The notes below the pieces were generated by a model. That model did no database searches, had not been told where the DNA came from, and saw only the letters and a list, made by a program, of their open reading frames with translations. Both the position numbers and the translations under genes were made by a program. Source: an uncultured Clostridia bacterium (lineage in GTDB: Bacteria; Bacillota; Clostridia; Oscillospirales; CAG-272). Taken from it: DNA of 47,295 nt. The stretch is from assembly GCA_947625805.1 (NCBI GenBank), contig CANQPT010000011.1:1-47295 (forward strand), written 5' to 3'. This document shows, one piece after another, positions 1 to 40,504 of the stretch (position 1 is its first letter; every line of letters begins with the position of its first letter).

Positions 1-76
1 AACAAGACGAACAACGGGCGAAATATTTGATCCGGCATTTGGGACTTTAAGGGAAAAATTTCCGTCGGGACTAATA

Positions 77-105
77 TTGACTTTTGTACGGAAACGTGGT
101 ATACT
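77..105 (+). promoter_or_regulatory. SigA-type promoter for the HprK-like kinase gene
   Basis: TTGACT (77-82), 17-nt spacer, TATACT (100-105), just upstream of the start codon. Confidence 0.7.
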
Positions 106-123
106 TACACAGCCGGGGCGCAA

Positions 124-852
124 ATGGAGGTTGTTATGGCACTGTATCGATTTGCGGGGCTTGTAGTTGAAATGTCTCCGCAGTACCCTACACTGTTAAA
201 GCAGGCCTCGCCTTATATTTTGCAAGCGCAAGACGCAAAGCCGAATATAACCATTCGGCCGGACGAAGGATATATCGAATCCATTATACAAGCCGCTCCG
301 TATTTCTCGGCGGATATGGCCGAATATTGTCGGTTCGGTACGCTGTTTTACCGTGCCTTGCTTGCCTTTGACGGAATGATGCTTCATTCCTCTGCGGTGG
401 TGCTCGATCAAAAGGCTTATCTTTTTTCGGCGCCGTCCGGCACGGGCAAATCCACACATACTTCCGGCTGGATTCGGCGCTTTGGCAACCGATCGTTTAT
501 TTTGAACGACGATAAACCCGCCATACGCTTTCACAATGGCGTACTTTACGCTTACGGCACGCCGTTTTCCGGCAAAAGCGACCTTTCACGCAACGCGATG
601 GCGCCCGTCGCGGGTATCTGTATGCTCGAGCGGGGAAACCACAACCAGATCAAACGGATTTCCGCCGAACAAGCGCTTACGCTCATTTATGAGCAGACCA
701 TCCGCCGCCTGACGCGCGATGAGGGCACACGTATGCTGGAAACGCTGGTCAAAGTCGTTTGTTCGACGCCGCTGTGGAAGATGCGCTGTAACGTCAGCGC
801 CGAGGCGGTCGATCTTTCCTATCGCGCCATGAGCGGAGCCGCAACCGTCTGA
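124..852 (+). CDS. HPr kinase/PadeK-like kinase of the type found in RiPP clusters
   Basis: Walker A 'SAPSGTGKSTHT', 'ILNDDKPAIR', 'YGTPFSGKSDLS'. Resembles the HprK-like kinases of paeninodin-type lasso clusters. The start could be the Met at 136. Confidence 0.7.
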   Translation: MEVVMALYRFAGLVVEMSPQYPTLLKQASPYILQAQDAKPNITIRPDEGYIESIIQAAPYFSADMAEYCRFGTLFYRALLAFDGMMLHSSAVVLDQKAYLFSAPSGTGKSTHTSGWIRRFGNRSFILNDDKPAIRFHNGVLYAYGTPFSGKSDLSRNAMAPVAGICMLERGNHNQIKRISAEQALTLIYEQTIRRLTRDEGTRMLETLVKVVCSTPLWKMRCNVSAEAVDLSYRAMSGAATV

Positions 853-964
853 GCGGAGCAATCGGTACAAACGCACGGCCGGACGGAAAACCGGAAAAAC
901 CGCGTGCGCCGCGGCAGGACGAATTGATTGATATGCGAAAAAAATAAAAAAATGGAATTAGCCC

Positions 965-992
965 TTGACTTCCGTAAAAAATGTAGTATAAT
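965..992 (+). promoter_or_regulatory. SigA-type promoter for the secreted repeat protein
   Basis: TTGACT (965-970), 16-nt spacer, TATAAT (987-992). Confidence 0.7.
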
Positions 993-1078
993 GAATATGT
1001 ATAAAATTGTATGAATCGGCGCATGATCCGACGCAAAAAACGCCGGGTCAGCTGTCGAATTTTAAGGAGGAAAGAATT

Positions 1079-3616
1079 ATGGCAAAATTCAAACGTATGT
1101 CCAAACGAGGCTTGTCTGTGATTCTGGTGTGCATGATGCTGTTGTCCTGCATGACGCCGGTAATCGCGTTGGATAGCCCGGAAAAAAATTCAGTCACTAT
1201 TACATTCCCTCAAGAATTTGATAATGTGGCTTTTTACGGTGGAAGTGATACCAAACTAACAGGCAAAAAAACACTTGTAACAAACAACCCTTCAGATAAC
1301 TTATATATGGGTTTTTTAAGTGGATATTATACTTATACTTTTTATGCTGTTCCACAAAGTGAAGGAGCAGATTCTTTCGATGAGCCAATGCCCAATCTTA
1401 GTATTAAGTCCAAGCCAGATAATATTGCAGAAAACCCGGAATATGTGAATATAGACAAAGCCGGATACGCCGTAACACTCAAACTCCCAAAATCTATAGT
1501 TATGCTACAGGGCATTGCTTTTGAAGTAACAGTCATAGATTCGGTTGAAACTTTCGATGTAAACGTTCGAACCAGCGGCGACGGATTCACGGTAGACAAA
1601 CCCGGTGTTAACCCCGTTGAAAACGAAAAGGGTTTTGAATTAACTATCACTCTCAGCCCGAGTCGCCGCGCAGGCTATAAACCGCAGGTGTATGACAATG
1701 ATACACTGATAGATGACACTAAAGTTACCTCCCTCGATAATGGCAAATCATATACGTATAAACTTGATCAGGTAACGAGTGCTCATACCATTGATGTTTC
1801 GTTGGTTCCCATTACGTTTACGGTAAAACGTGATGAAGGAACAGAAAACTGGAAAAACGTTGAAACCACTTTGCGGGATGGGGGTGAAACGGTAAACTAC
1901 GGAAGCAATTACACGTTTTCTCTTGCTCCTGTCGCGGGTCATACCCTTGCTAATGAACCTGTTACCATCACAATGGCTCAGGATAGTGCAAAAGCAAAAA
2001 CCCTTACAAAAGGCACGGACTATGTGGTAGTCGGAAATCAATATACCATCTATAACATTACCGGCGATGTTACAGTTACGCTCAAGGCAGTAACAGAACA
2101 GAAGTTCAACGTGAATTGGCCTACCGATACAGGATATACAATTGTTTCTGACAGTGGTAGTGACATTACAGCTGACGAGAAGTCAGTTGTTTATGGCGAT
2201 ACGTTCAAGTTCAAAGTTAAATTGGATCCCGCTTATAGCAAATCCGAACGCAATGTGGTCGTTACGGTAAACGGTCAGATTTTACCCGTTGGCGATGACA
2301 AAATTTACACCATTTCCGATATTAAAGAGAATAAAACCATTTTGGTGAACGGCGTTACTCTAAACACCTATAACATCACGCATATACAGACTGGAAATGG
2401 TTATACCTTTAGTTCACAGAGTTCGATGAGTAATGTCCCGCACGGTTCGTCTTTCTCTTTCACTGTTACGCCTGTAACCGGGTACACAATCGAAAGTGTT
2501 AAGTATAAGAAGTCCAGTGAAGTTGCAGATAATGGAACATCTTTAGAATCAAACGGAAACGTTTACACGATCGATAAAGTTGAAGATAACCTTACAATAA
2601 CCGTTACCGCTACGACGAGCACGTATACCCTTACTCTTCCGAATAAAGACACTGAGCGGAAGGGATATACCATAAAAATAGGCAACGAAGAGGCAGGAAA
2701 CAGCAAAGTATGCAATTACAATGATCCCGTCGAACTTACCATCGCGCCAAAAAAAGGCTATACCGTCACGGGTGTTTATAGAGTGGTAGACGGCGAAAGA
2801 TCACTGGTATATGGCGCTAATAACAACTATACGATCAGAGTAACAAGCGATATGAAAATTGTCGTTGAAACAGATACAATCAAATACACTGTTACCTATC
2901 AAGACAGCAAAGGCGGAACGACTACAAAAACATACGACGTAGAAACCGGAGTAAACCTTGAAAAAGGATCTCCCGAGATTACAGTGGATATTGCTGACCC
3001 AACACATGCTTATTACACTTTCGAAGGTTGGTCGAATGCGCAAAACTCTCAAAACTCTAATGTAAAAAAAGGCGGAACGATCGTACTCGCAACCGGCGAA
3101 ACCTCAGCTACCGTTACCGCACAGTGGACACTGAACCTTAGCGCACTTGAAACAAATACCGCAGGCGCTAGTACCAAAGCTTTAGGCGGTACTGTCACCT
3201 ATGACAAAGAAGACCACGAGAAGCTGACCATCAAGGTCACATGGAATTTGGGTGTGTTCCGCGAGGCCATCTCTGAAGTAGCCAACGCCAATTATGATAT
3301 TGTCTCCGTGGGCATCTGCTACTCCAATCAGAAAATAACCGAAACCGATACAAATTGGCAAACAAACGTAAAAAATTTAACGAACGAGAAAACGGAAAAA
3401 GAAGGCGAAGTGATAGTCAACTCGAACCAGCATCTCTACTACTATGTAGACGGCAGAGTTCTTGCCGAACAGGCGGATACCGCTACGTTTAAGTTCAGCA
3501 ACGTGAGAAAACCTCGATATGCGATCGGTTGGATCACAGTTCGGATCGGCAACAACGAAAACGATACCGTCACGCTTTACACAGGTGAAATAAGCTACAC
3601 CGAGTTCGATTCTTGA
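1079..3616 (+). CDS. Secreted InlB B-repeat/beta-grasp repeat surface protein
   Basis: SD AAGGAGGAAAG before ATG 1079; signal peptide MAKFKRMSKRGLSVILVCMMLLSCMTPVIA; repeated 'YTVTVTGVY'-type units; 'FEGWSNAQ...TVTAQW' InlB-like motif. No LPxTG or C-terminal TM. Confidence 0.7.
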   Translation: MAKFKRMSKRGLSVILVCMMLLSCMTPVIALDSPEKNSVTITFPQEFDNVAFYGGSDTKLTGKKTLVTNNPSDNLYMGFLSGYYTYTFYAVPQSEGADSFDEPMPNLSIKSKPDNIAENPEYVNIDKAGYAVTLKLPKSIVMLQGIAFEVTVIDSVETFDVNVRTSGDGFTVDKPGVNPVENEKGFELTITLSPSRRAGYKPQVYDNDTLIDDTKVTSLDNGKSYTYKLDQVTSAHTIDVSLVPITFTVKRDEGTENWKNVETTLRDGGETVNYGSNYTFSLAPVAGHTLANEPVTITMAQDSAKAKTLTKGTDYVVVGNQYTIYNITGDVTVTLKAVTEQKFNVNWPTDTGYTIVSDSGSDITADEKSVVYGDTFKFKVKLDPAYSKSERNVVVTVNGQILPVGDDKIYTISDIKENKTILVNGVTLNTYNITHIQTGNGYTFSSQSSMSNVPHGSSFSFTVTPVTGYTIESVKYKKSSEVADNGTSLESNGNVYTIDKVEDNLTITVTATTSTYTLTLPNKDTERKGYTIKIGNEEAGNSKVCNYNDPVELTIAPKKGYTVTGVYRVVDGERSLVYGANNNYTIRVTSDMKIVVETDTIKYTVTYQDSKGGTTTKTYDVETGVNLEKGSPEITVDIADPTHAYYTFEGWSNAQNSQNSNVKKGGTIVLATGETSATVTAQWTLNLSALETNTAGASTKALGGTVTYDKEDHEKLTIKVTWNLGVFREAISEVANANYDIVSVGICYSNQKITETDTNWQTNVKNLTNEKTEKEGEVIVNSNQHLYYYVDGRVLAEQADTATFKFSNVRKPRYAIGWITVRIGNNENDTVTLYTGEISYTEFDS

Positions 3617-3661
3617 CAAAATTGACGCATGGGAAATCGATTTATGAATAGAAGTTGCATT

Positions 3662-3811
3662 ATGAAGAAGAAACCGTATGTTTCACCGGATTTCAAGGTC
3701 GTGATATACGAATCAGAACAGGATATCATGACATATTCTACTACCCATCCTGATCCGTTCGATTCGTTTGACTCGTTTGAAGATCTGTCAGACGACGACC
3801 TTGACAAATAA
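3662..3811 (+). CDS. Short peptide, YxxPx[LFM] family member 1 (RiPP-precursor-like)
   Basis: MKKKPYVSPDFKVVIYESEQDIMTYSTTHPDPFDSFDSFEDLSDDDLDK. The start at 3662 is chosen by alignment to the two paralogs; the track ORF begins at 3629. Confidence 0.65.
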   Translation: MKKKPYVSPDFKVVIYESEQDIMTYSTTHPDPFDSFDSFEDLSDDDLDK

Positions 3812-3831
3812 ACGTAAGAGGTGCTTGTGAT

Positions 3832-4017
3832 ATGAGCAAGAAGTATATTTCACCGGAATTAACCGTTGTGCTTTTTGAGACAAAAGATGCATTGATGGCC
3901 GGCGCTGGCGGATACGAGAAGTCCTACGTCGACCCGTTCCAAGACAAAGCTCCTTCTCCGCCCGCCGCCGAGGGCAAGATAAAACAGGACTGGAGTCCGA
4001 TCGATAGTCTGAAGTGA
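3832..4017 (+). CDS. Short peptide, YxxPx[LFM] family member 2 (RiPP-precursor-like)
   Basis: MSKKYISPELTVVLFETKDALMAGAGGYEKSYVDPFQDKAPSPPAAEGKIKQDWSPIDSLK; SD AGAGGTG upstream. Confidence 0.7.
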   Translation: MSKKYISPELTVVLFETKDALMAGAGGYEKSYVDPFQDKAPSPPAAEGKIKQDWSPIDSLK

Positions 4018-4028
4018 CGCACAACGCG

Positions 4029-4063
4029 ATACGCCCACGACCTGCTCTGGGTCGTGGGCGTAT
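4029..4063 (+). terminator. Strong hairpin ending the peptide operon
   Basis: Perfect 14-bp inverted repeat ATACGCCCACGACC / GGTCGTGGGCGTAT with 7-nt loop. A second hairpin follows at 4090-4118 (AAAGAAAGGC/GCCTTTCTTT). Confidence 0.7.
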
Positions 4064-4128
4064 CTTTGGTGTTGTTTGCGGTAAGACGGAAAGAAAGGCC
4101 GATTTTACGCCTTTCTTTCAAACGGGCA

Positions 4129-4157
4129 TTGCATTTTGCCGCATAATCTGTTATAAT
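4129..4157 (+). promoter_or_regulatory. SigA-type promoter for the CpsC-CpsD-CpsB module
   Basis: TTGCAT (4129-4134), 17-nt spacer, TATAAT (4152-4157). Confidence 0.6.
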
Positions 4158-4243
4158 CATCACTGTTGTGATGAGCGGCCTGCCCCGCCCGTCGGTTTAC
4201 GCCGCAAGGATACGAATCATTTTTTTAAGGACCGGAAAACAAG

Positions 4244-4975
4244 ATGGAGAGCAACAATCAAAAAACGTTGGAAATCAATTTGATACAGATTTTTTCTGTA
4301 TTATGGCATAAGGCGTGGATCCTCATTCTGGCCGCCGTTCTCTGCGGCTCGGTCGGCGTTGGTTATGCCAAATTACAAACGCCGATTTACCGTTCGCGCG
4401 TTTCCATTATGGTCAATAATACGTATGCCGTCGAAACCGGCGTTATTTCAAGCGGCGAAATATCGGTAGCGGTGCATTTGGCGCAAACGTATATTGTCTT
4501 AGTTAAGAGCGACACGATCTTAAACGACGTTCTTGAGGCGACCGGGCTCAACTATACAACCGCACAGCTTAAGAGCATGGTTTCGGCCAACGTCGTGAAT
4601 GACACCGAGATATTTGAAATATACGTCAGCGGCACCGATCCAAACCAAACGCGCCTGATCGCAAACGCTTTTCTTGAAGTCATGCCCGACCGCGTTCACG
4701 AAATTGCCGAAGGCAGTTCTCTTAAAACGGTAGATCGCGCCATTCTTCCGGGATCACAGACTTCGCCGAACGTGCCGAGAACGACGTTTCTGTTTGCTTT
4801 GATCGGAATTTTTATCAGCGCCGCGATCATTATGTTACTTGAAGTATTCAGCGATAAAATAACAGATGAGGATTATTTGATCCAGACGTACGATCTTCCT
4901 ATTCTTGCTTCCATACCAAGCATCGGAGATTCGCATAAATCATCTCGTTACAAATACGGATATTATAAAAAATAA
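4244..4975 (+). CDS. Wzz/CpsC-type polysaccharide co-polymerase (tyrosine kinase modulator)
   Basis: Two TM segments flanking an extracytoplasmic region; 'PNVPRTTFLFALIGIFISAAIIMLLEVFSDKI' C-terminal TM. Confidence 0.85.
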   Translation: MESNNQKTLEINLIQIFSVLWHKAWILILAAVLCGSVGVGYAKLQTPIYRSRVSIMVNNTYAVETGVISSGEISVAVHLAQTYIVLVKSDTILNDVLEATGLNYTTAQLKSMVSANVVNDTEIFEIYVSGTDPNQTRLIANAFLEVMPDRVHEIAEGSSLKTVDRAILPGSQTSPNVPRTTFLFALIGIFISAAIIMLLEVFSDKITDEDYLIQTYDLPILASIPSIGDSHKSSRYKYGYYKK

Positions 4976-4989
4976 TCGGGAGAAGCGAT

Positions 4990-5742
4990 ATGTCTGATAA
5001 GAGCAAAAAACAAAAAGAGTATACGGCCCTTGAAATAGAAGATGCGTTCCCGATGGGTCAACATCTCAGCTTTGCCGCAACCGAGGCATACAAACGACTG
5101 CGTTCATCGTTGATCTTCTGTTTGCCCAAAAATGAAAATAAAAACTGCCGTATCGTGGGTATCACAAGCAGTAACGTGGGCGAAGGCAAAAGCACTACCG
5201 CGTTCAACCTTGCGTATTCGATTGCCGAAAGCGACCAGCGCGTGCTTTGTCTGGAGGCGGATATGCGCCTTCCGCAGATTTCCAAACGCTTGAATTTAGA
5301 GACCTCACCGGGTCTTAGCGAGTGTCTGGCCGGTGAAGTCCTGGAAGGAAACGACGCCATTCGGAAAATCAACAACAATTTATACGTTATGCCGTCGGGC
5401 AGAGTTCCGCCCAATCCTTCCGAACTTTTGGGCTCGTCGGCAATGAGCCGCCTGCTTGAGCTTTTGTCGCAGGTTTTCAGCTTTATTGTGATTGATCTTC
5501 CGCCGATTGGAGCCGTTGTGGACGCGCTCAACGTGGCCAAACAGGTGGACGGTATGGTTATGGTCGTCCGCAGAGAATGGGCGACGCGCCGTTCTCTTGC
5601 AAGCGCGGTGCGCGAACTCAAACTTGCCGACGCGCGTCTTTTGGGATTTGTCTTTAACGACGCAACGGAAGGAAGCAAAAAGCCTAAAAAATACAAGGGC
5701 TATAAAAAATATTCAAAATACTACTATACAAAACAGGATTGA
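4990..5742 (+). CDS. CpsD/CapB-family BY-kinase (tyrosine-protein kinase)
   Basis: 'SSNVGEGKSTTAFNLAYSIAESDQRVLCLEADMRLPQ'; Tyr-rich tail 'KKYKGYKKYSKYYYTKQD'. Confidence 0.9.
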   Translation: MSDKSKKQKEYTALEIEDAFPMGQHLSFAATEAYKRLRSSLIFCLPKNENKNCRIVGITSSNVGEGKSTTAFNLAYSIAESDQRVLCLEADMRLPQISKRLNLETSPGLSECLAGEVLEGNDAIRKINNNLYVMPSGRVPPNPSELLGSSAMSRLLELLSQVFSFIVIDLPPIGAVVDALNVAKQVDGMVMVVRREWATRRSLASAVRELKLADARLLGFVFNDATEGSKKPKKYKGYKKYSKYYYTKQD

Positions 5743-5763: not shown

Positions 5764-6471
5764 ATGTTGATTGATTTTCATTCTCATATTCTTCCCGGGA
5801 TCGACGACGGTGCGGCGGATCTTTCCGTAAGTCTGGAACTGATCGCCTCATCTGCGAAACAAGGCGTTGGGCTTATGGCGGCAACGCCTCATTTCTACCC
5901 GTATCGCGTTGGATTTGACACGTTCTTTCAAAATCGCGCAAGGGCTTTCGATGCAGTATCGGAAGTCTTGCCGGCCGGGTCGCCTCATATCCTGCCGGGT
6001 GCGGAAGTGGGCTATTTCAAAGGAATCAGTCAAGTATCCGAAGCCGAACGGTTGGGACTGGGAAACACGGGGATTCTCCTATTGGAAATGCCGTTTGAGC
6101 GGTGGGATAAGAGCGTGATATCCGAAGTCGTGGACTTACACCAAAGCGGCGGGGTGACCGTGTTGATCGCGCACATTGAACGATACATAGACTATCAGAA
6201 ACATAACGCTGTGCAAGAACTGCTCAACTCCGGGATCTATTTTCAATCAAACGCAGAGTTCTTTTTGAATAAGAGGCAAAAAAAGACAGCGCTTAAGATG
6301 TTGGAGCGCGGGCAGATCCACGTCTTAGGGTCGGACTGCCACAATATGACCGATCGCAAACCCAATCTGGGCGAGGCCGTTCGCGTTATAACCGACGCAT
6401 TCGGCGCGTCGGCGGTCGATGCGATTGACACGTTCGGCGCAAATCTTTTGTCAGGTGAAATTCCAAAGTAA
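5764..6471 (+). CDS. CpsB/CapC-family PHP tyrosine phosphatase
   Basis: 'LIDFHSHILPGIDDGAADL...MAATPHFYP...VLGSDCHNM' PHP motifs. Confidence 0.9.
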   Translation: MLIDFHSHILPGIDDGAADLSVSLELIASSAKQGVGLMAATPHFYPYRVGFDTFFQNRARAFDAVSEVLPAGSPHILPGAEVGYFKGISQVSEAERLGLGNTGILLLEMPFERWDKSVISEVVDLHQSGGVTVLIAHIERYIDYQKHNAVQELLNSGIYFQSNAEFFLNKRQKKTALKMLERGQIHVLGSDCHNMTDRKPNLGEAVRVITDAFGASAVDAIDTFGANLLSGEIPK

Positions 6472-31618: not shown

Positions 31619-34423
31619 TTATCCAAAATTCATATTCCAGTCGATTGGATCTTGGGCGCGGTAGAGGAAGGTCACAGCCTGTCCTCGGACGCAGGCGCCG
31701 CTCGGATCAAAGTGGGTGACGTCCACGCCGGTGGTGACGTTGCAGGAAACCGCCCAGAGCATGGCGTCGTAATAGAACGCATCTACTCTTACGTCAAAGA
31801 AGGAATGATTCACCATTCCCAGCATGTCGAGCGGCTGGCCTGCCGCCCGCCATAAGAAGGTCACGATCTGTGCGCGGCTGCAGATGCCCTCCGGTGCAAA
31901 ATGGGTGGCGTCCATGCCTGTGGTAATGCCCTGCTCCACTGCCCAAAGAACGGCGTTGTAGTAGTAGGCGTCGGGCGACACGTCCACAAAAGGATTGTCC
32001 CGAAAGAGCGGGGTCGGCTGTCCGGCGTATCTCCAGAGGAAGGTGACAATCTGCGCTCTTGTGCAACTGCCCTTCGGTGAAAAGTGGGTGTCGTCCACGC
32101 CTGTGGTGATATCGCCCGCTGCCGCCCAAATCACGGCGTCGGTATAATATGCGCTGTCGGATACGTCGACAAACTGGGTGAGGGGCGCGTTTCCTACCGC
32201 AAGAAACGCGCACTCGTGCACGATGCCCAGCGTCAATTCGATGCCTGTATGTCCCTCTTTCAGCGCCGTGACGTTGCCCGCGCCGTCGACGGCCGCCACC
32301 GTGGGATCGGTGCCGGTCCACACACAGCCGGTATTTTCGATCTTCACCCCGTCCCCAAAGCGTTCGCTGCCGACGGCAAGGGCAGTCACTCGGATGCTTT
32401 CGCCCACCTGCAGGCGGCTGCTGTCTAAGGAAAGAATGATCTCGATCTTGTAAGGGCCGGAGTTTGCTCCGAAGTCAAAGCTCACGCCGTTTGAAATGGT
32501 CGCTTCGGAAAACTGATCCAGCGCGAGGCGGACTTGATTTGTCACATTCCGGTCGGCGGGTTTTCCGACGGATACGGCATCTTCCGTGCTGAAATCCTGC
32601 ACCCAATAACAGCAACCGTTGATTTTGAAACAACCGATGCCGATCGAGGTATAATCTTCGGCTAAGATGTTCGCCCGATGTCCCTCGGAATGCATCCAAC
32701 TTTCCATGGCCTCCGCGGGACTTGCCTGACCTGCGGCGATGTTTTCGCCCCAGATCTTGCTGTTCATTTCGTTGATGTGAGAGCCGTCGGTACGGGTGTG
32801 GGAGAAGAGCACCGAAGCCTCTGCCGCCCGCTGCATGGCGCATTCGAGCAGTTCTTTGTCCATGGTAAGTGCGCCAAGCCCCTGCTTTGCACGCTCTGCG
32901 TTGACCAGATCCAGCACCTCATAGGCCGCCGAATAATCGTCATAGCCTGAAATGCTTACCGTCTGGATCCTTGCAAGACCGTTGACGCCGTAGGCGCTGA
33001 GTTCGGGGTTTTTGCAGTTTAAGCGCACGTTTGCCGGGAAAGCAAAACTGTGCACGTACCGGATGCTCTCCGGCAGGGTTACTTCACCCAGACTGCCGCA
33101 CCCGTAGAAGGCCGCGCGGTAGATATTTTTCACCCGGTCAAAGGTGAGGTCGGTAAGCGAGTAACAGTTCATGAACGCCTGGAACGGAATGACGGTCAGG
33201 CCGTTGCCCACGAAGGATCGCAGAGACGTGCACTCGCCGAAGCAGGCGTTGCCGATGTAAGTGACCGTGTCCGGCAGGACGACCTCGGTCAGCGAGTCGC
33301 AGTATGCAAAGGTATGCGCATAGAGGCGCAAAGGCGTATCGGGGAAGTGGATGGTCGTAAGGTCACGGCACTCCCGGAACATCTGGTAAGAGGTTTCCCT
33401 AAGACCGCGCCCCAAGGTCACGGTCTGCAAGGCGCACCCGTAAAAGGTAAAGTACCCGGCGACGGTCACGCTGTCCGGAATGGTCACCTCGGTCAGTCCC
33501 GCCTCCTGAAAAGAAGATTCGTCCAGTTCGCTCACGCTGTCCGGAACGGTCACATGGGTGAGGTTTTCGGCTTGCAGAAATGCGCCTCTGTACACCTTGG
33601 TCACGCCGGTCGGAATGGTGAAAGAGGAATCGCTTTTACCGGTCGGATAGGCGAAGAGCGTCTTGCCGCCGTCGGCGTAAAGCACGCCGTCGACAGCGGA
33701 AAAGACCGTGTTGCCGGCCTCTACGGTGTAAGCGTTGATTTTTGCGCCGAAAAATGCGATCCCGGAGATCTCGGTCACGTTTTTGCCGACCTCAAAGGTG
33801 GTAAACGGACACCGCTCGAAGACGTAGTCATCGATGGTCCTGACCCCGGGCGCCTTGATTTCGGAAAGGCTTGTACAGCCTGAAAAAAGAGCGTAGGACA
33901 GCTTCTCGATCCCGGCGGGCAGGGTGATGGAGGCTAAGGACGTGCATTCCGCAAAGGCCGCGTTCCCGATGGCGGTGAGCGTGTCGGGGAAGGACACGCT
34001 CGTAAGGAGCGGGCACAGGCAAAAAGAATACCGTGAGAGGGAGGTCACCCCGGAAGTCACGATCACAGCGCGAATGGACGACTGAAAATCGCCCCACGGA
34101 ATGTCGTCCAAGGTTTCGATCTCCTTCATCTCGCCGGTTCCGGAGACGGTCAGAGTTCCGTCCGACAGGGTCCAGGTAAGATTTTCTCCCCAGGTTCCCG
34201 CAGTCCCGGCAGCAAGCGTCCGAATCCCGCCGTTTTCGGGCAGGCCGGCCTCAAGTTGAAATTCGTCCGGCGCCTCGGCCTCGGACTGCAGAGACAGGGC
34301 TTGTGCCGCTCGGTCGGCGGCAGCCTGTCCGATCACTCCTTCAGACTCTGCGGCAAGGGACGCAGGACAGAGAGCGAAGAACACGGCGATCATCAAAAGA
34401 CCCGCGATCATTCGGTTTTTCAT
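31619..34423 (-). CDS. Secreted BspA-type LRR + CAP (SCP) domain + three SLH domains surface protein
   Basis: Signal peptide MKNRMIAGLLMIAVFFALCPASLA; LRR_5 repeats 'LTSVSFPDTLTAIGNAAFAECTSLASITLPAGI'; CAP 'LVNAERAKQGLGALTMDKELLECAMQRAAE...HRANIL'; SLH 'FVDVSDSAYYTDAVIWAAAGDITTGVDDTHFSPKGSCTRAQIVTFLWR' x3. Confidence 0.93.
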   Translation of the reverse strand: MKNRMIAGLLMIAVFFALCPASLAAESEGVIGQAAADRAAQALSLQSEAEAPDEFQLEAGLPENGGIRTLAAGTAGTWGENLTWTLSDGTLTVSGTGEMKEIETLDDIPWGDFQSSIRAVIVTSGVTSLSRYSFCLCPLLTSVSFPDTLTAIGNAAFAECTSLASITLPAGIEKLSYALFSGCTSLSEIKAPGVRTIDDYVFERCPFTTFEVGKNVTEISGIAFFGAKINAYTVEAGNTVFSAVDGVLYADGGKTLFAYPTGKSDSSFTIPTGVTKVYRGAFLQAENLTHVTVPDSVSELDESSFQEAGLTEVTIPDSVTVAGYFTFYGCALQTVTLGRGLRETSYQMFRECRDLTTIHFPDTPLRLYAHTFAYCDSLTEVVLPDTVTYIGNACFGECTSLRSFVGNGLTVIPFQAFMNCYSLTDLTFDRVKNIYRAAFYGCGSLGEVTLPESIRYVHSFAFPANVRLNCKNPELSAYGVNGLARIQTVSISGYDDYSAAYEVLDLVNAERAKQGLGALTMDKELLECAMQRAAEASVLFSHTRTDGSHINEMNSKIWGENIAAGQASPAEAMESWMHSEGHRANILAEDYTSIGIGCFKINGCCYWVQDFSTEDAVSVGKPADRNVTNQVRLALDQFSEATISNGVSFDFGANSGPYKIEIILSLDSSRLQVGESIRVTALAVGSERFGDGVKIENTGCVWTGTDPTVAAVDGAGNVTALKEGHTGIELTLGIVHECAFLAVGNAPLTQFVDVSDSAYYTDAVIWAAAGDITTGVDDTHFSPKGSCTRAQIVTFLWRYAGQPTPLFRDNPFVDVSPDAYYYNAVLWAVEQGITTGMDATHFAPEGICSRAQIVTFLWRAAGQPLDMLGMVNHSFFDVRVDAFYYDAMLWAVSCNVTTGVDVTHFDPSGACVRGQAVTFLYRAQDPIDWNMNFG

Positions 34424-34437
34424 AAATTCTCCTCCTA

Positions 34438-34944
34438 TCATTCAAATAAACATTTTGCGCTTTGATAGTGTAAAAAGATCCCCTGCTCGCCCAGGGCCGC
34501 GATCTGCCCCGCGTCGGCAAGCTGCCAGCCGTCGGTTTCTTGAGGCTGAGCGCGCACCTCGGACGGGTCAAAGTCCCGCTCGAACCGATAGCAGTCGACG
34601 ATATAGTTGTCCCCGTCGTTCGACTCCCGCCGATAGGTGAGCATCAATTGGTGCGGACAGTCCGAGACGTCGATCCCGGTTTCCTCCCGTACCTCGCGCA
34701 CAACCGCATCGTACGAGTCCTCGCCTGCCTGTGCCGCCCCGCCCGGAATCTCCCACCAGCCGGGGGCGTAGTCCTTGTTCGCCTTGCGTTTGGTGATCAA
34801 AAACTTTCCGTCCGGGCGGCGGATCGCGCCCAGTACGGTCAGATGAAATTCTCCGTCTTTCAGAATCCAGTCGTTTCGGCGCATGGTGCGGCCGGTGCGG
34901 TTTTTGTCTTTATCGTAAATGTCCCAACGTTCTTCCTTTTTCAA
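34438..34944 (-). CDS. NUDIX hydrolase
   Basis: 'GGAAQAGEDSYDAVVREVREETGID' Nudix box; 'WDIYDKDKNRTGRTMRR'. Confidence 0.93.
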   Translation of the reverse strand: MKKEERWDIYDKDKNRTGRTMRRNDWILKDGEFHLTVLGAIRRPDGKFLITKRKANKDYAPGWWEIPGGAAQAGEDSYDAVVREVREETGIDVSDCPHQLMLTYRRESNDGDNYIVDCYRFERDFDPSEVRAQPQETDGWQLADAGQIAALGEQGIFLHYQSAKCLFE

Positions 34945-37603: not shown

Positions 37604-40504
37604 TTAAACGTTATCGGGCATCAGCTGAGTGCTCGTCTCCGCGGTGACCACATAAATCTTTCCGTTGATACGCAGGGTTACGAAGGCCATGACGTACCGC
37701 TCCTCGTTTTTCGGAATATCTTTCATGGTGAAGTTGATGTTGCTGGCAATATAAGCATCGAAAGAAAAATCTCTGCCCGCTACGTAGTAGTATACGCCCT
37801 TTGGACTATTTTGAAGAACCGTCGATGGCTGTCGGTTTTTCCACTCGTAGTCACCATTATCAACCTCGTAATTCTGTTTGGCAATTTCATCTTTTACTTG
37901 ATCCGCCGTAAAGGAGCCATCCGCATAAACAAAGCCAAACGCCAGAATCTTCGCGTTTTTCAGATCTTCTTGATACTTGAACTCTGCGCCGTCTCCCCCG
38001 GTCGAGTCCCATCCAAACCGGAATGCATTCGTATACTTGCCATCCTGTTCACCCTGTGTAGGTGGATCCGTTTTTACATCTACCTGCACCATTTTCTGAA
38101 CGGCCTCATCAGGAACATACCACAAGGCCGTCAAGTGGATCTCCGTGCCTTTCTTGAAGTCGCTGTTGATGGTCAGTGTCTGCCCGTCCTCGGAAAGGGT
38201 ACAACCGACTGGAGCTTGGTCCGTAAACTCCCATCCGCCGAATTCGTACTTGACCGTTTCTTCATCATCGTTCATGATGTCGTCAAGCGTTTTCAGCGTG
38301 ACGGTCATGGTGCCATCGGCCACTTGCACATTCTCATCCTCGGAGGTGTACGTCTCCTGCGTGGTCTTGGGTTCGCTTTCACTCTTATCGTCCGTGTAGG
38401 AAACGGTGTACGTGTTGGGGGTCTTATCGAAGATCGGGTACAGGTCGCAGTTGGTGTAGATCGCCTCGACCGGGTTGCCCTTCCGGTCACCCCAACACTT
38501 GAAGGTGTAGGTGTACTGAACGTCGGCAGGCTTTTCGGGTTTGCTCACGTCCTTGAGAAGTGCGAAGACTTCGTTCGGGGTCTTGAGCGCGCCGCGCTGG
38601 ACGTTGTTCGAGTTACTAGTACCTTGGACAACGTTCACATTAGTATACTCGTATTTCACGGGCTCGGCGATCGGCTCCCCGTCTTCACCGTGGAAGGTCA
38701 CGGTCGGCTGTAGGTTGTCCTGAATGACCGCCAACATGGTGAAGGTTGCGTTCGAATTTTCGTTTTTCGGCTCTCTTTGGTTGTTTTCATCGTAAAAATG
38801 TGTTGCATGACTGTTAAAGATCGAAAATTCGCTGACCGCACTTGCGGTATACACACCGTTCATGCCGTTCAATCTCGAATTGATATAAAAGTAATAGTAT
38901 CCGTTTTTCAGGTCAAGTACGCTGGGGGCTTTTCCGTCGTTCGAGTCCGCGGGTGAGCCCCATTGCCAAGATTGACCGCGCAGACCATCATTACCATTTG
39001 AATCCAGACCCCACATTTTGACGTACACATCATCCGCGATGATAGTCTTGTCGGCATCCACTCCGTCAATCTTGTAGACCAGCGTGATACCGGTACCGCC
39101 GTGCAGAGCCACCTTCTCCTGCAAGAAATTCTGTTTTGCGGCGGGGTTGTTGATGGTTTGTGTGGTCGGTTTTTCGTAGACGATACCGTATTTGTCGTAG
39201 GAGGCTACGAAGGTTACGTCATCGACGTAAACATAGGTTGCGGGATTCACAAGTGTTCCGTCCGAGCCTTGCACCGTCCAGCCCTTAAAGGTGTAGGCAT
39301 ACACGCCGTCGTGCTTACTCAGGTTCGGCACTTGCGGGACTTCCCCGTCCAGTTTACCTTGATTTGCGGAAAGTTGCTTAATTGTCGTTCCGTCATCGTC
39401 GAGGAAAGTGACCGTGTACTCCGTCTCTCCGGAAGCCGTCTTGTAGTACGGGAAAAGATCGACGTCCTCGTAGATGTAGTCAATCCGGTTGCCCGCCTCG
39501 TCACCCCAGTAATCAAACACGTAATAGGTCTCACCTTCCGGCTCCTTGGCGGGAAGAGTGGGGTGTTCGTCCAACAGCGCGTACACTTCGTTCGGTGTCT
39601 TGAGCGCGCCACGCTGTACGTTGTTCGAGTTATTAGTACCTTGGACAACGTTCACATTGGTATACTCGTATTTTATGGGCTCGGCGATCAGCTCCCCGTC
39701 TTCACCGTGGAAGGTGACGGTCGGCTGTAGATTGTCCTGAATGACCGCCAGCATGGTGAAAGTTGCGTTTGAATTGTTGTTTAACGGGTCTCTTTTGTTG
39801 TGTTCATCGTAAAAATGTGTTGCATGACTGTTAAAGATGGAAAATTCGCTGACCGCACTCGCGGTATACACACCGTTCATGCCGTTCAATCTCGAATTGA
39901 TATAAAAGTAATAGTATCCGTTTTTCATGTCAAGCACGCTGGGGGCTTTTCCGTCGTTCGACTCTGCGGGCAAGCCCCATTGCCAAGATTGACCGCGCAG
40001 ACCATCATTACCGTTTGAATCCAGACCCCACAATTTGACGTACACATCATCCGCGATGATAGTCTTGTCGGCATCCACTCCGTCAATCTTGTAGACCAGC
40101 GTGATACCGGTACCGCCGTGCAGCGGAACTTTCTCAGGTAAAAGATCCTGCTTGGTACCATCAGGGTTTTTGATTGTAATCGGTTTCGGGTCTACGAAAT
40201 ACACACCGCCCCCGTCTGCCGCCTTTGTTTGCACTTCATCATCTGTGTCCGCGTCCGTGGCGGTCAATTCCGCTTCCGGGACGGCGTCCGGCGTGTCCGC
40301 GCTCGCAGTGGTTTCCGCGCCGACGGAAGAGTCTGCTTCATCCGCGGCGGCGATTTCCTGCCCCACGGGCTGTACGCTTGCCGACAGGGTTTCTTCAGCC
40401 GCGCTTTCGACGGTTTGTGCGCCGACGGAAAAGCTCGCAACAGGCGTTACGGAAACGACTGTCACAATCGCCAGCAAAAGCGCCAACAACTCTTTCTTCA
40501 TCAT
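37604..40504 (-). CDS. Secreted protein with duplicated domain and InlB-like repeats
   Basis: Signal peptide MMKKELLALLLAIVTVVSVTPVASFSVGAQ; SD GGAGGAACAT; 'YAYTFKGWTVQG...VASYD' InlB-like motifs; C-terminal module shared with the 1079-3616 product. Confidence 0.75.
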   Translation of the reverse strand: MMKKELLALLLAIVTVVSVTPVASFSVGAQTVESAAEETLSASVQPVGQEIAAADEADSSVGAETTASADTPDAVPEAELTATDADTDDEVQTKAADGGGVYFVDPKPITIKNPDGTKQDLLPEKVPLHGGTGITLVYKIDGVDADKTIIADDVYVKLWGLDSNGNDGLRGQSWQWGLPAESNDGKAPSVLDMKNGYYYFYINSRLNGMNGVYTASAVSEFSIFNSHATHFYDEHNKRDPLNNNSNATFTMLAVIQDNLQPTVTFHGEDGELIAEPIKYEYTNVNVVQGTNNSNNVQRGALKTPNEVYALLDEHPTLPAKEPEGETYYVFDYWGDEAGNRIDYIYEDVDLFPYYKTASGETEYTVTFLDDDGTTIKQLSANQGKLDGEVPQVPNLSKHDGVYAYTFKGWTVQGSDGTLVNPATYVYVDDVTFVASYDKYGIVYEKPTTQTINNPAAKQNFLQEKVALHGGTGITLVYKIDGVDADKTIIADDVYVKMWGLDSNGNDGLRGQSWQWGSPADSNDGKAPSVLDLKNGYYYFYINSRLNGMNGVYTASAVSEFSIFNSHATHFYDENNQREPKNENSNATFTMLAVIQDNLQPTVTFHGEDGEPIAEPVKYEYTNVNVVQGTSNSNNVQRGALKTPNEVFALLKDVSKPEKPADVQYTYTFKCWGDRKGNPVEAIYTNCDLYPIFDKTPNTYTVSYTDDKSESEPKTTQETYTSEDENVQVADGTMTVTLKTLDDIMNDDEETVKYEFGGWEFTDQAPVGCTLSEDGQTLTINSDFKKGTEIHLTALWYVPDEAVQKMVQVDVKTDPPTQGEQDGKYTNAFRFGWDSTGGDGAEFKYQEDLKNAKILAFGFVYADGSFTADQVKDEIAKQNYEVDNGDYEWKNRQPSTVLQNSPKGVYYYVAGRDFSFDAYIASNINFTMKDIPKNEERYVMAFVTLRINGKIYVVTAETSTQLMPDNV
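38568..39118 (-). repeat. 551-bp intragenic repeat, copy B
   Basis: Encodes EKVALHGGTGITLVYK...ALKTPNEVFALL, near-identical to copy A at 39585-40135. Confidence 0.85.
39585..40135 (-). repeat. 551-bp intragenic repeat, copy A
   Basis: Encodes EKVPLHGGTGITLVYK...ALKTPNEVYALL; same length as copy B. Confidence 0.85.

Follow-up and report, generated by a model that had tools for sequence, protein, structure and literature searches.

The stretch of DNA analysed here, called the window, comprises 47,295 nt (positions 1 to 47,295 of contig CANQPT010000011.1 from an uncultured Clostridia bacterium, GCA_947625805.1). At its left edge stands the 3' end of an NTP_transf_5 gene, which is followed by the genes of an HprK-type kinase and a secreted protein, by the short peptide genes pepA and pepB and by a capsule operon (Table 1). 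A third peptide gene, pepC, begins 23 nt after the gene of its own secreted partner. The left end of the window (61 nt) is 96.7% identical to the end of a PF14907 gene on contig C31 of the same genome; the genome has two PF14907 genes, and the end of one of them lies directly upstream of the kinase gene in the window. Two NCBIfam models matched the kinase below cut-off, TIGR04249 (E 4e-7) and TIGR04352 (E 1e-4); no Pfam family matched. Its AlphaFold model (pLDDT 94) had HprK/P (1kkl) as the best PDB match in Foldseek, followed by PEPCK. The preliminary description had left this gene at the left edge unlinked to the peptides, with which we now connect it. The promoter-like site preceding the secreted-protein gene has a similar counterpart at the same place in the related genome G226. 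In the 966-aa secreted protein a long internal segment (from ..LPEKVPLHGGTGITLVYKIDGVDADKTI..) occurs twice in nearly identical form, and the minus strand also encodes, at 31619-34441, a surface protein with BspA-type LRR, CAP, Big_2 and SLH domains.

Table 1 Position and strand of the features described in the window, with the basis of each assignment
Feature	Position	Strand	Basis
NTP_transf_5 (PF14907-type) nucleotidyltransferase, 3' end, cut by contig edge (QDEQRAKYLIRHLGL-stop)	3..50	+	Similarity to C31 copy
Promoter-like site before kinase gene, TTGACT-17-TATACT	77..105	+	Consensus match only
HprK-type serine kinase (LppK-like), likely start 136	124..852	+	NCBIfam weak matches, structure model
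Promoter-like site before secreted-protein gene, TTGACT-16-TATAAT	965..992	+	Consensus match
Secreted repeat protein, 844 aa, signal peptide, pepA/pepB partner	1082..3616	+	Sequence
C-terminal domain common to four peptide-paired secreted proteins	3194..3613	+	Alignment, genome profile search
pepA, YxxP precursor peptide, 55 aa	3644..3811	+	Ortholog comparison, profile match
pepB, YxxP precursor peptide, 61 aa	3832..4017	+	Ortholog comparison, profile match
Intrinsic-terminator-like hairpin, 17 pairs, weak T tail, ends secreted-pepA-pepB unit	4028..4064	+	Sequence
Wzz/CpsC chain-length determinant, capsule-locus neighbour	4244..4975	+	PF02706 E 1.5e-14, TIGR01006
CpsD-type tyrosine autokinase, capsule-locus neighbour	4990..5742	+	TIGR01007 above cut-off
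CpsB/CapC phosphatase, capsule-locus neighbour	5764..6471	+	PF19567 E 5e-39
pepC, YxxP precursor peptide, 47 aa	37437..37580	-	Paralog comparison, profile match
Secreted repeat protein, 966 aa, signal peptide, pepC partner	37604..40504	-	Sequence
C-terminal domain, shared type, in pepC partner	37607..38056	-	Alignment, genome profile search

The peptide genes and their family

The three short peptides claimed in the preliminary description are all present, their alignment fits the consensus proposed there, and the DP[FL] and [FI]DS[FL] elements were found in their tails. For pepA, the open reading frame placed at 3662-3811 was correct but its start was not: position 3662 is an internal ATG, and the ATG at 3644, which has GGGA upstream and in the alignment coincides with the first codon of the ortholog in G226, is the likelier one. 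A profile trained on 67 peptides, all from other genomes, picked exactly pepA, pepB and pepC (E values 2.6e-8, 8e-4 and 9e-4 for the three) from the 1,031 stop-to-stop frames of the window; the next frame had an E value of 5.4, and no further member of the YxxP family was found in the window. The motif expressed as a DNA pattern hit five sites in the 1.87-Mb genome and none when reversed. The two hits beyond the window lie on contigs C12 and C17 and bring the genome total to five peptides.

The G226 orthologs of pepA and pepB are 65% and 60% identical, with dN/dS pairs of 0.26/0.81 and 0.33/1.26, respectively; third codon positions are the most changed and the indels preserve the frame. For pepC and its two paralogs, dN/dS is about 0.37-0.51. 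Short reading frames of which the window holds just three examples might be taken for spurious ORFs or chance similarity. The purifying selection, the conserved starts and ribosome-binding sites, the orthologs and paralogs found in order and the specificity of the profile match leave this a negligible chance, and the short peptides are real genes under purifying selection. Pfam and NCBIfam assigned no family to the peptides; only the one from Herbivorax gave a weak paeninodin match (E 0.19).

Counting from the Tyr as 0, the consensus of the 78 distinct peptides of the family is Y-x-x-P-E-[LI]-E-[IV]-[IV]-x-F-x-[TA]-E-D-[VI]-[IL]-[TM]-[AT]-S, followed by an acidic tail, and includes the lasso-type leader motif [Y/W]xxPx[L]. 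F, Y or L occupies the Px6 position in 72/78 peptides, 42 of which also have T, A or S two residues later. A Ser stands at Tyr+19 in 48/78 and somewhere between +16 and +24 in 70/78. A conserved leader of the RRE-binding type with a divergent tail had been put forward as the signature of RiPP precursors, and our tests support this. Hypervariability of the tails holds between paralogs only; orthologs retain parts of the tail, and KQDWSPIDSLK of pepB is identical in its G226 ortholog. In the genome G006 (L246 and L247), three very similar peptides were observed (..EPILDDPF..GGWDTDVSLPEGWM), and in a relative (locus L136), HprK, PqqD and SpI genes adjoin the same peptide.

Pairing with secreted proteins

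In the window genome, each of the five peptides comes after a large secreted protein. The C-terminal domain of these proteins, searched for with a profile of their last 150 residues, occurs in exactly four copies in this genome, with one or two of the five peptides behind each of the four proteins that carry it. The link between the peptides and the secreted repeat proteins that had been drawn earlier is borne out at the level of gene pairing. The domain itself matched no Pfam family over cut-off and, as a model with pLDDT 69, no PDB fold at E 0.001 or better.

The same arrangement was observed in other genomes, which were mostly metagenome bins. With a crude signal-peptide rule and complete ORFs only, the ORF directly before the peptide had at least 400 aa and a signal-like N-terminus in 18/25 cases, compared with 117/1,436 other ORFs (P about 2e-14). 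Conversely, the domain profile found 42 proteins away from contig edges (E below 1e-3), 29 of which are followed by a peptide according to strict rules and at least five more if looser spacing or start is allowed. The distance from the secreted gene to the peptide is mostly 1-65 nt, and peptides distant from any kinase also mostly stand just after large secreted proteins. The upstream partner is sometimes cut off because the repeat-rich secreted genes often end contigs.

The idea that the peptide tail copies the C-terminus of its own secreted partner proved not to be general (mean score 15.9 for own and 16.0 for other partners), L136 being an exception with a score of 65. There the secreted protein (893-5707) ends GGWETETENPEGWE and its peptide (5963-6118) ends GGWETDVSLPEGWM; the tail seems to be present twice, within the secreted protein and within the peptide. 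Peptide-like tails also end the proteins L221 3133-9852 and L233 793-4848.

Enzymes in the window genome and its relatives

The candidate enzymes are dispersed in the window genome, which has two HprK-type kinase copies: the first is that of the window, the second lies beside a PqqD/RRE gene on contig C6, and an SpI-type peptidase gene (E 5e-40) lies on contig C28. The discrete RRE of the gene set matched PF05402 (E 4.6e-20). The RRE profile matches the solved RREs of lasso peptides and of linear polyphosphorylated peptides (LPPs; 5v1u, 6jx3, 9x90 and 9x8z) and is closer to TbiB1 (E 4e-10) than to LppB 9x8z (E 4e-5). The motifs GxSMxP, HR and GD are invariant in the alignment of the SpI-type peptidases and correspond to the Ser, His and Asp of LppS, the LPP peptidase (PMC13381572); the SpI-type peptidases match TIGR02228 weakly. 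At the orthologous locus of G226, the genes of HprK, PqqD/RRE, the SpI-type peptidase, the secreted protein, pepA, pepB and Wzz stand in a row, and we regard this locus, judging by its gene order, as the complete version of that in the window. Two more secreted proteins are encoded directly upstream of HprK in G226 (L239 5167-8150). Herbivorax sp. ANBcel31 contains one run of genes for a secreted protein, a peptide, an SLH protein, HprK, PqqD, SpI and an ABC-transporter-like protein and probably, judged by position, a nucleotidyltransferase; peptide and kinase share a locus in Ruminococcus bromii ATCC 27255 as well, and these three genomes have the clearest loci. An MsbA-like ABC transporter was assigned by Pfam in G037 (L066) and by position in Herbivorax (L131).

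At least 593 relatives of the kinase were confirmed. HprK-like and PqqD genes adjoin in many relatives, the SpI-type peptidase commonly being the third gene: among 120 HprK/PqqD loci, all three were found in 55, HprK with PqqD in 20 and HprK with SpI in eight. A YxxP peptide lies at most 1.5 kb upstream on the same strand at 21 HprK loci; the twelve control motifs gave 1-5. The preliminary description had named a lack of homologs elsewhere, a non-coding substitution pattern and homologs never lying near RiPP enzymes or secreted proteins as findings that would count against it. On the contrary, homologs occur in many genomes, substitutions between orthologs are of the coding kind, and homologs adjoin PqqD/RRE, HprK and SpI genes and follow secreted proteins.

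Alternatively, the phosphopeptides could stay in the cell: RRE and kinase would modify the peptide so that it regulates the secreted protein or the capsule operon, or senses their translation, and neither leader removal nor export would take place. The tight coupling to the secreted gene, the adjoining CpsB and CpsD genes and several HprK loci in which no SpI gene was detected are in line with this proposal. It is nevertheless improbable in view of the SpI-type peptidase, which is present in 64/120 HprK/PqqD loci, mostly together with PqqD, and also in the window genome, and of the conserved Ser right after the leader, which resembles that of LPPs.

Co-occurrence of kinase and peptides

In 199 genomes of the order, the kinase was found in 54 and the peptide family in 49, with both in 45, the kinase only in nine and the peptide only in four (Fisher P about 8e-31, kinship ignored, with a peptide profile partly built from peptides picked near HprK genes). 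The survey yielded 125 peptides, one to seven per genome, only 19 of which lie within 6 kb of a kinase gene. No HprK was detected in the four peptide-only genomes, one of which, G006, is 98% complete. These four genomes, and a pairing with secreted proteins as strong as that with HprK, would suit small non-RiPP chaperones of the secreted protein, associated with HprK and PqqD only through shared ancestry or capsule-locus linkage. Such chaperones are a distinctly remote explanation: the leader fits the RRE-binding consensus, the kinase accompanies the peptides in nearly all genomes although most peptides are far from it, and the peptides adjoin the HprK-PqqD-SpI genes in G226 and Herbivorax.

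Discussion

The leader motif YxxPx[LIF] is that of lasso peptide precursors, whose core is cyclised. The peptide system described here shares with paeninodin-type lasso peptides (PadeA/PadeK; PbaA/PbaB1) the [Y/W]xxPx[L] leader, a discrete PqqD/B1 RRE, an HprK-type kinase acting on Ser and an NTP transferase; HprK and nucleotidyltransferase genes are contained in paeninodin-type lasso clusters (PMC13381572), and the best matches of the RRE profile are the lasso RREs TbiB1 and TfuB1. The lasso systems, however, have a B2 protease, a macrolactam cyclase and a ring-forming core. A search for B2 protease genes, suggested in the preliminary description, gave no PF13471 match over cut-off in the genome; the best score (E 0.04) belonged to a 67-aa frame overlapping a long ORF on C6. 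The penultimate leader position has no conserved Thr (I or L precedes the shared Met), no Asp or Glu stands at a fixed ring position (7-9 from the N-terminal residue), and the length and composition of the core vary freely. The leader residue is Tyr, not Trp. The lack of a B2 match over cut-off and of a ring-forming core largely refutes the lasso identity, which we consider very improbable, and the earlier remark that the peptides have no canonical lasso core was right.

The enzyme set corresponds to that of LPPs, known from the lpp cluster in Paenibacillus alginolyticus (Popov et al., May 2026; PMC13381572). This cluster comprises genes for a precursor, an RRE, an HprK-type kinase phosphorylating a core Ser, which is polyphosphorylated and lies near the end of the leader, an SpI-type leader peptidase (LppS, with residues Ser, His and Asp), an NTP transferase and an MsbA-like exporter (PMC13381572). 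Likewise, we found a short precursor with a YxxP leader and variable tail, a discrete RRE, an HprK-type kinase and no cyclase, together with an archaeal-type/SipW-like SpI peptidase with Ser-His-Asp, an NTP transferase, a capsule-locus context and, in G037 and Herbivorax, a candidate MsbA-like ABC transporter. The precursors differ. The LPP consensus YxxPxVLxHQxIxFETxxS has the form Px9Fx[T/A] (PMC13381572), which occurs in 0/78 of our peptides; their spacing is Px6[FLY]x[TAS], and the VLxHQ element is absent. The modified Ser of LppA is Tyr+18 (Y-16, S3; PMC13381572), whereas the Ser is mostly at Tyr+19 here; no Ser occupies the exact LppA position in these peptides, and it is displaced in pepB-E. 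Moreover, our precursors are scattered in trans, often far from the enzymes, and usually lie 3' of a large secreted protein. Because none conforms to the LPP precursor consensus, we classify the peptides as LPP-like and not as LPPs. The product class had been called unclear and possibly new; the form of the precursor does differ from LPP, but with an LPP enzyme set the class is not wholly new. The main text of the LPP paper (PMC13381572) does not mention Clostridia or secreted or surface proteins, and the pairing with secreted proteins, the scattered precursors and the presence across Clostridia go beyond that text. Among Clostridia of the gut and rumen, such a sister family of LPP seems to be common.

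The NCBIfam cassettes HPr-rel-A (TIGR04352/TIGR04353) and SynChlorMet (TIGR04248/TIGR04249) are also related, since the kinase and PqqD match them weakly and occur paired. All scores were nevertheless below the curated cut-offs (for HPr-rel-A, 21.1 vs 200 bits and 23.3 vs 35 bits), and we identify a peptide family as the target.

Genes, gene order, coding selection, family membership, co-occurrence and pairing were directly observed. On this basis we consider it likely that the peptides serve as precursors for a linear, phosphorylated, LPP-like RiPP which is exported and paired with a surface protein. The leader MKx-Y-x-x-P-x-[LIF]-x-V, about 20 residues long, would bind as a β strand in the groove of the discrete RRE (PqqD of C6), which would present the peptide to an HprK-type kinase, either that of the window or its C6 paralog. 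Since the enzyme set is that of LPP, serine phosphorylation of the HprK type is the expected first modification. The target would be the Ser that directly follows the leader. In most family members this would be S19 or S20, numbered from the Tyr; in the window subfamily it would be a Ser a few residues ahead of D-P-[FL]. The leader may then be removed by the membrane SpI-type Ser-His-Asp peptidase (C28) and the acidic core exported by an ABC transporter, with the NTP_transf_5 enzyme putatively adding a further group. Only HprK and the end of NTP_transf_5 from the enzyme set are present at the window locus, and a single set would serve several precursors in trans. Each precursor would be made behind a Sec-secreted surface protein with the shared C-terminal domain. 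Since the precursor is encoded behind the secreted protein, the two probably reach the surface or capsule together and act as partners. We infer this role, as we do leader binding, phosphorylation, leader removal, export and any association with the secreted protein.

A more specific form of this proposal is dispersed maturation of surface proteins, in which one RRE/HprK/SpI set would act in trans on many peptides, each with a secreted protein of its own, and the modified peptide would bind or join the shared C-terminal domain, thereby anchoring, assembling or decorating the protein at the capsule. The set would then work much as sortase and exosortase sets do for many scattered substrates. 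We consider this form rather unlikely.

The usual pairing of a peptide with a large secreted protein provides a concrete, testable hypothesis of phosphopeptides acting with surface proteins at the capsule. The peptide family offers candidate substrates for many RRE and HprK genes annotated without a target, and its pairing with surface proteins in gut Clostridia is a clue to the role of the peptides.

Two further observations concern related genes. Peptides of a second type, which have the approximate pattern MKKxYxKPxVxFExF and several Cys residues in their tails, were seen at L075 10651-10896, L080 3007-3261 and L084 8225-8473; they adjoin more divergent HprK and PqqD genes, follow large secreted proteins in two of the three cases and possibly form a further branch. 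The HprK-PqqD pair on C6 is preceded by genes of an adenylation enzyme of the AMP-binding family (PF00501) and of a small protein resembling carrier proteins (L052 5475-9167; G000:C6 about 48474-52166). This order suggests that an aminoacyl or another acyl step is linked to the peptide system.
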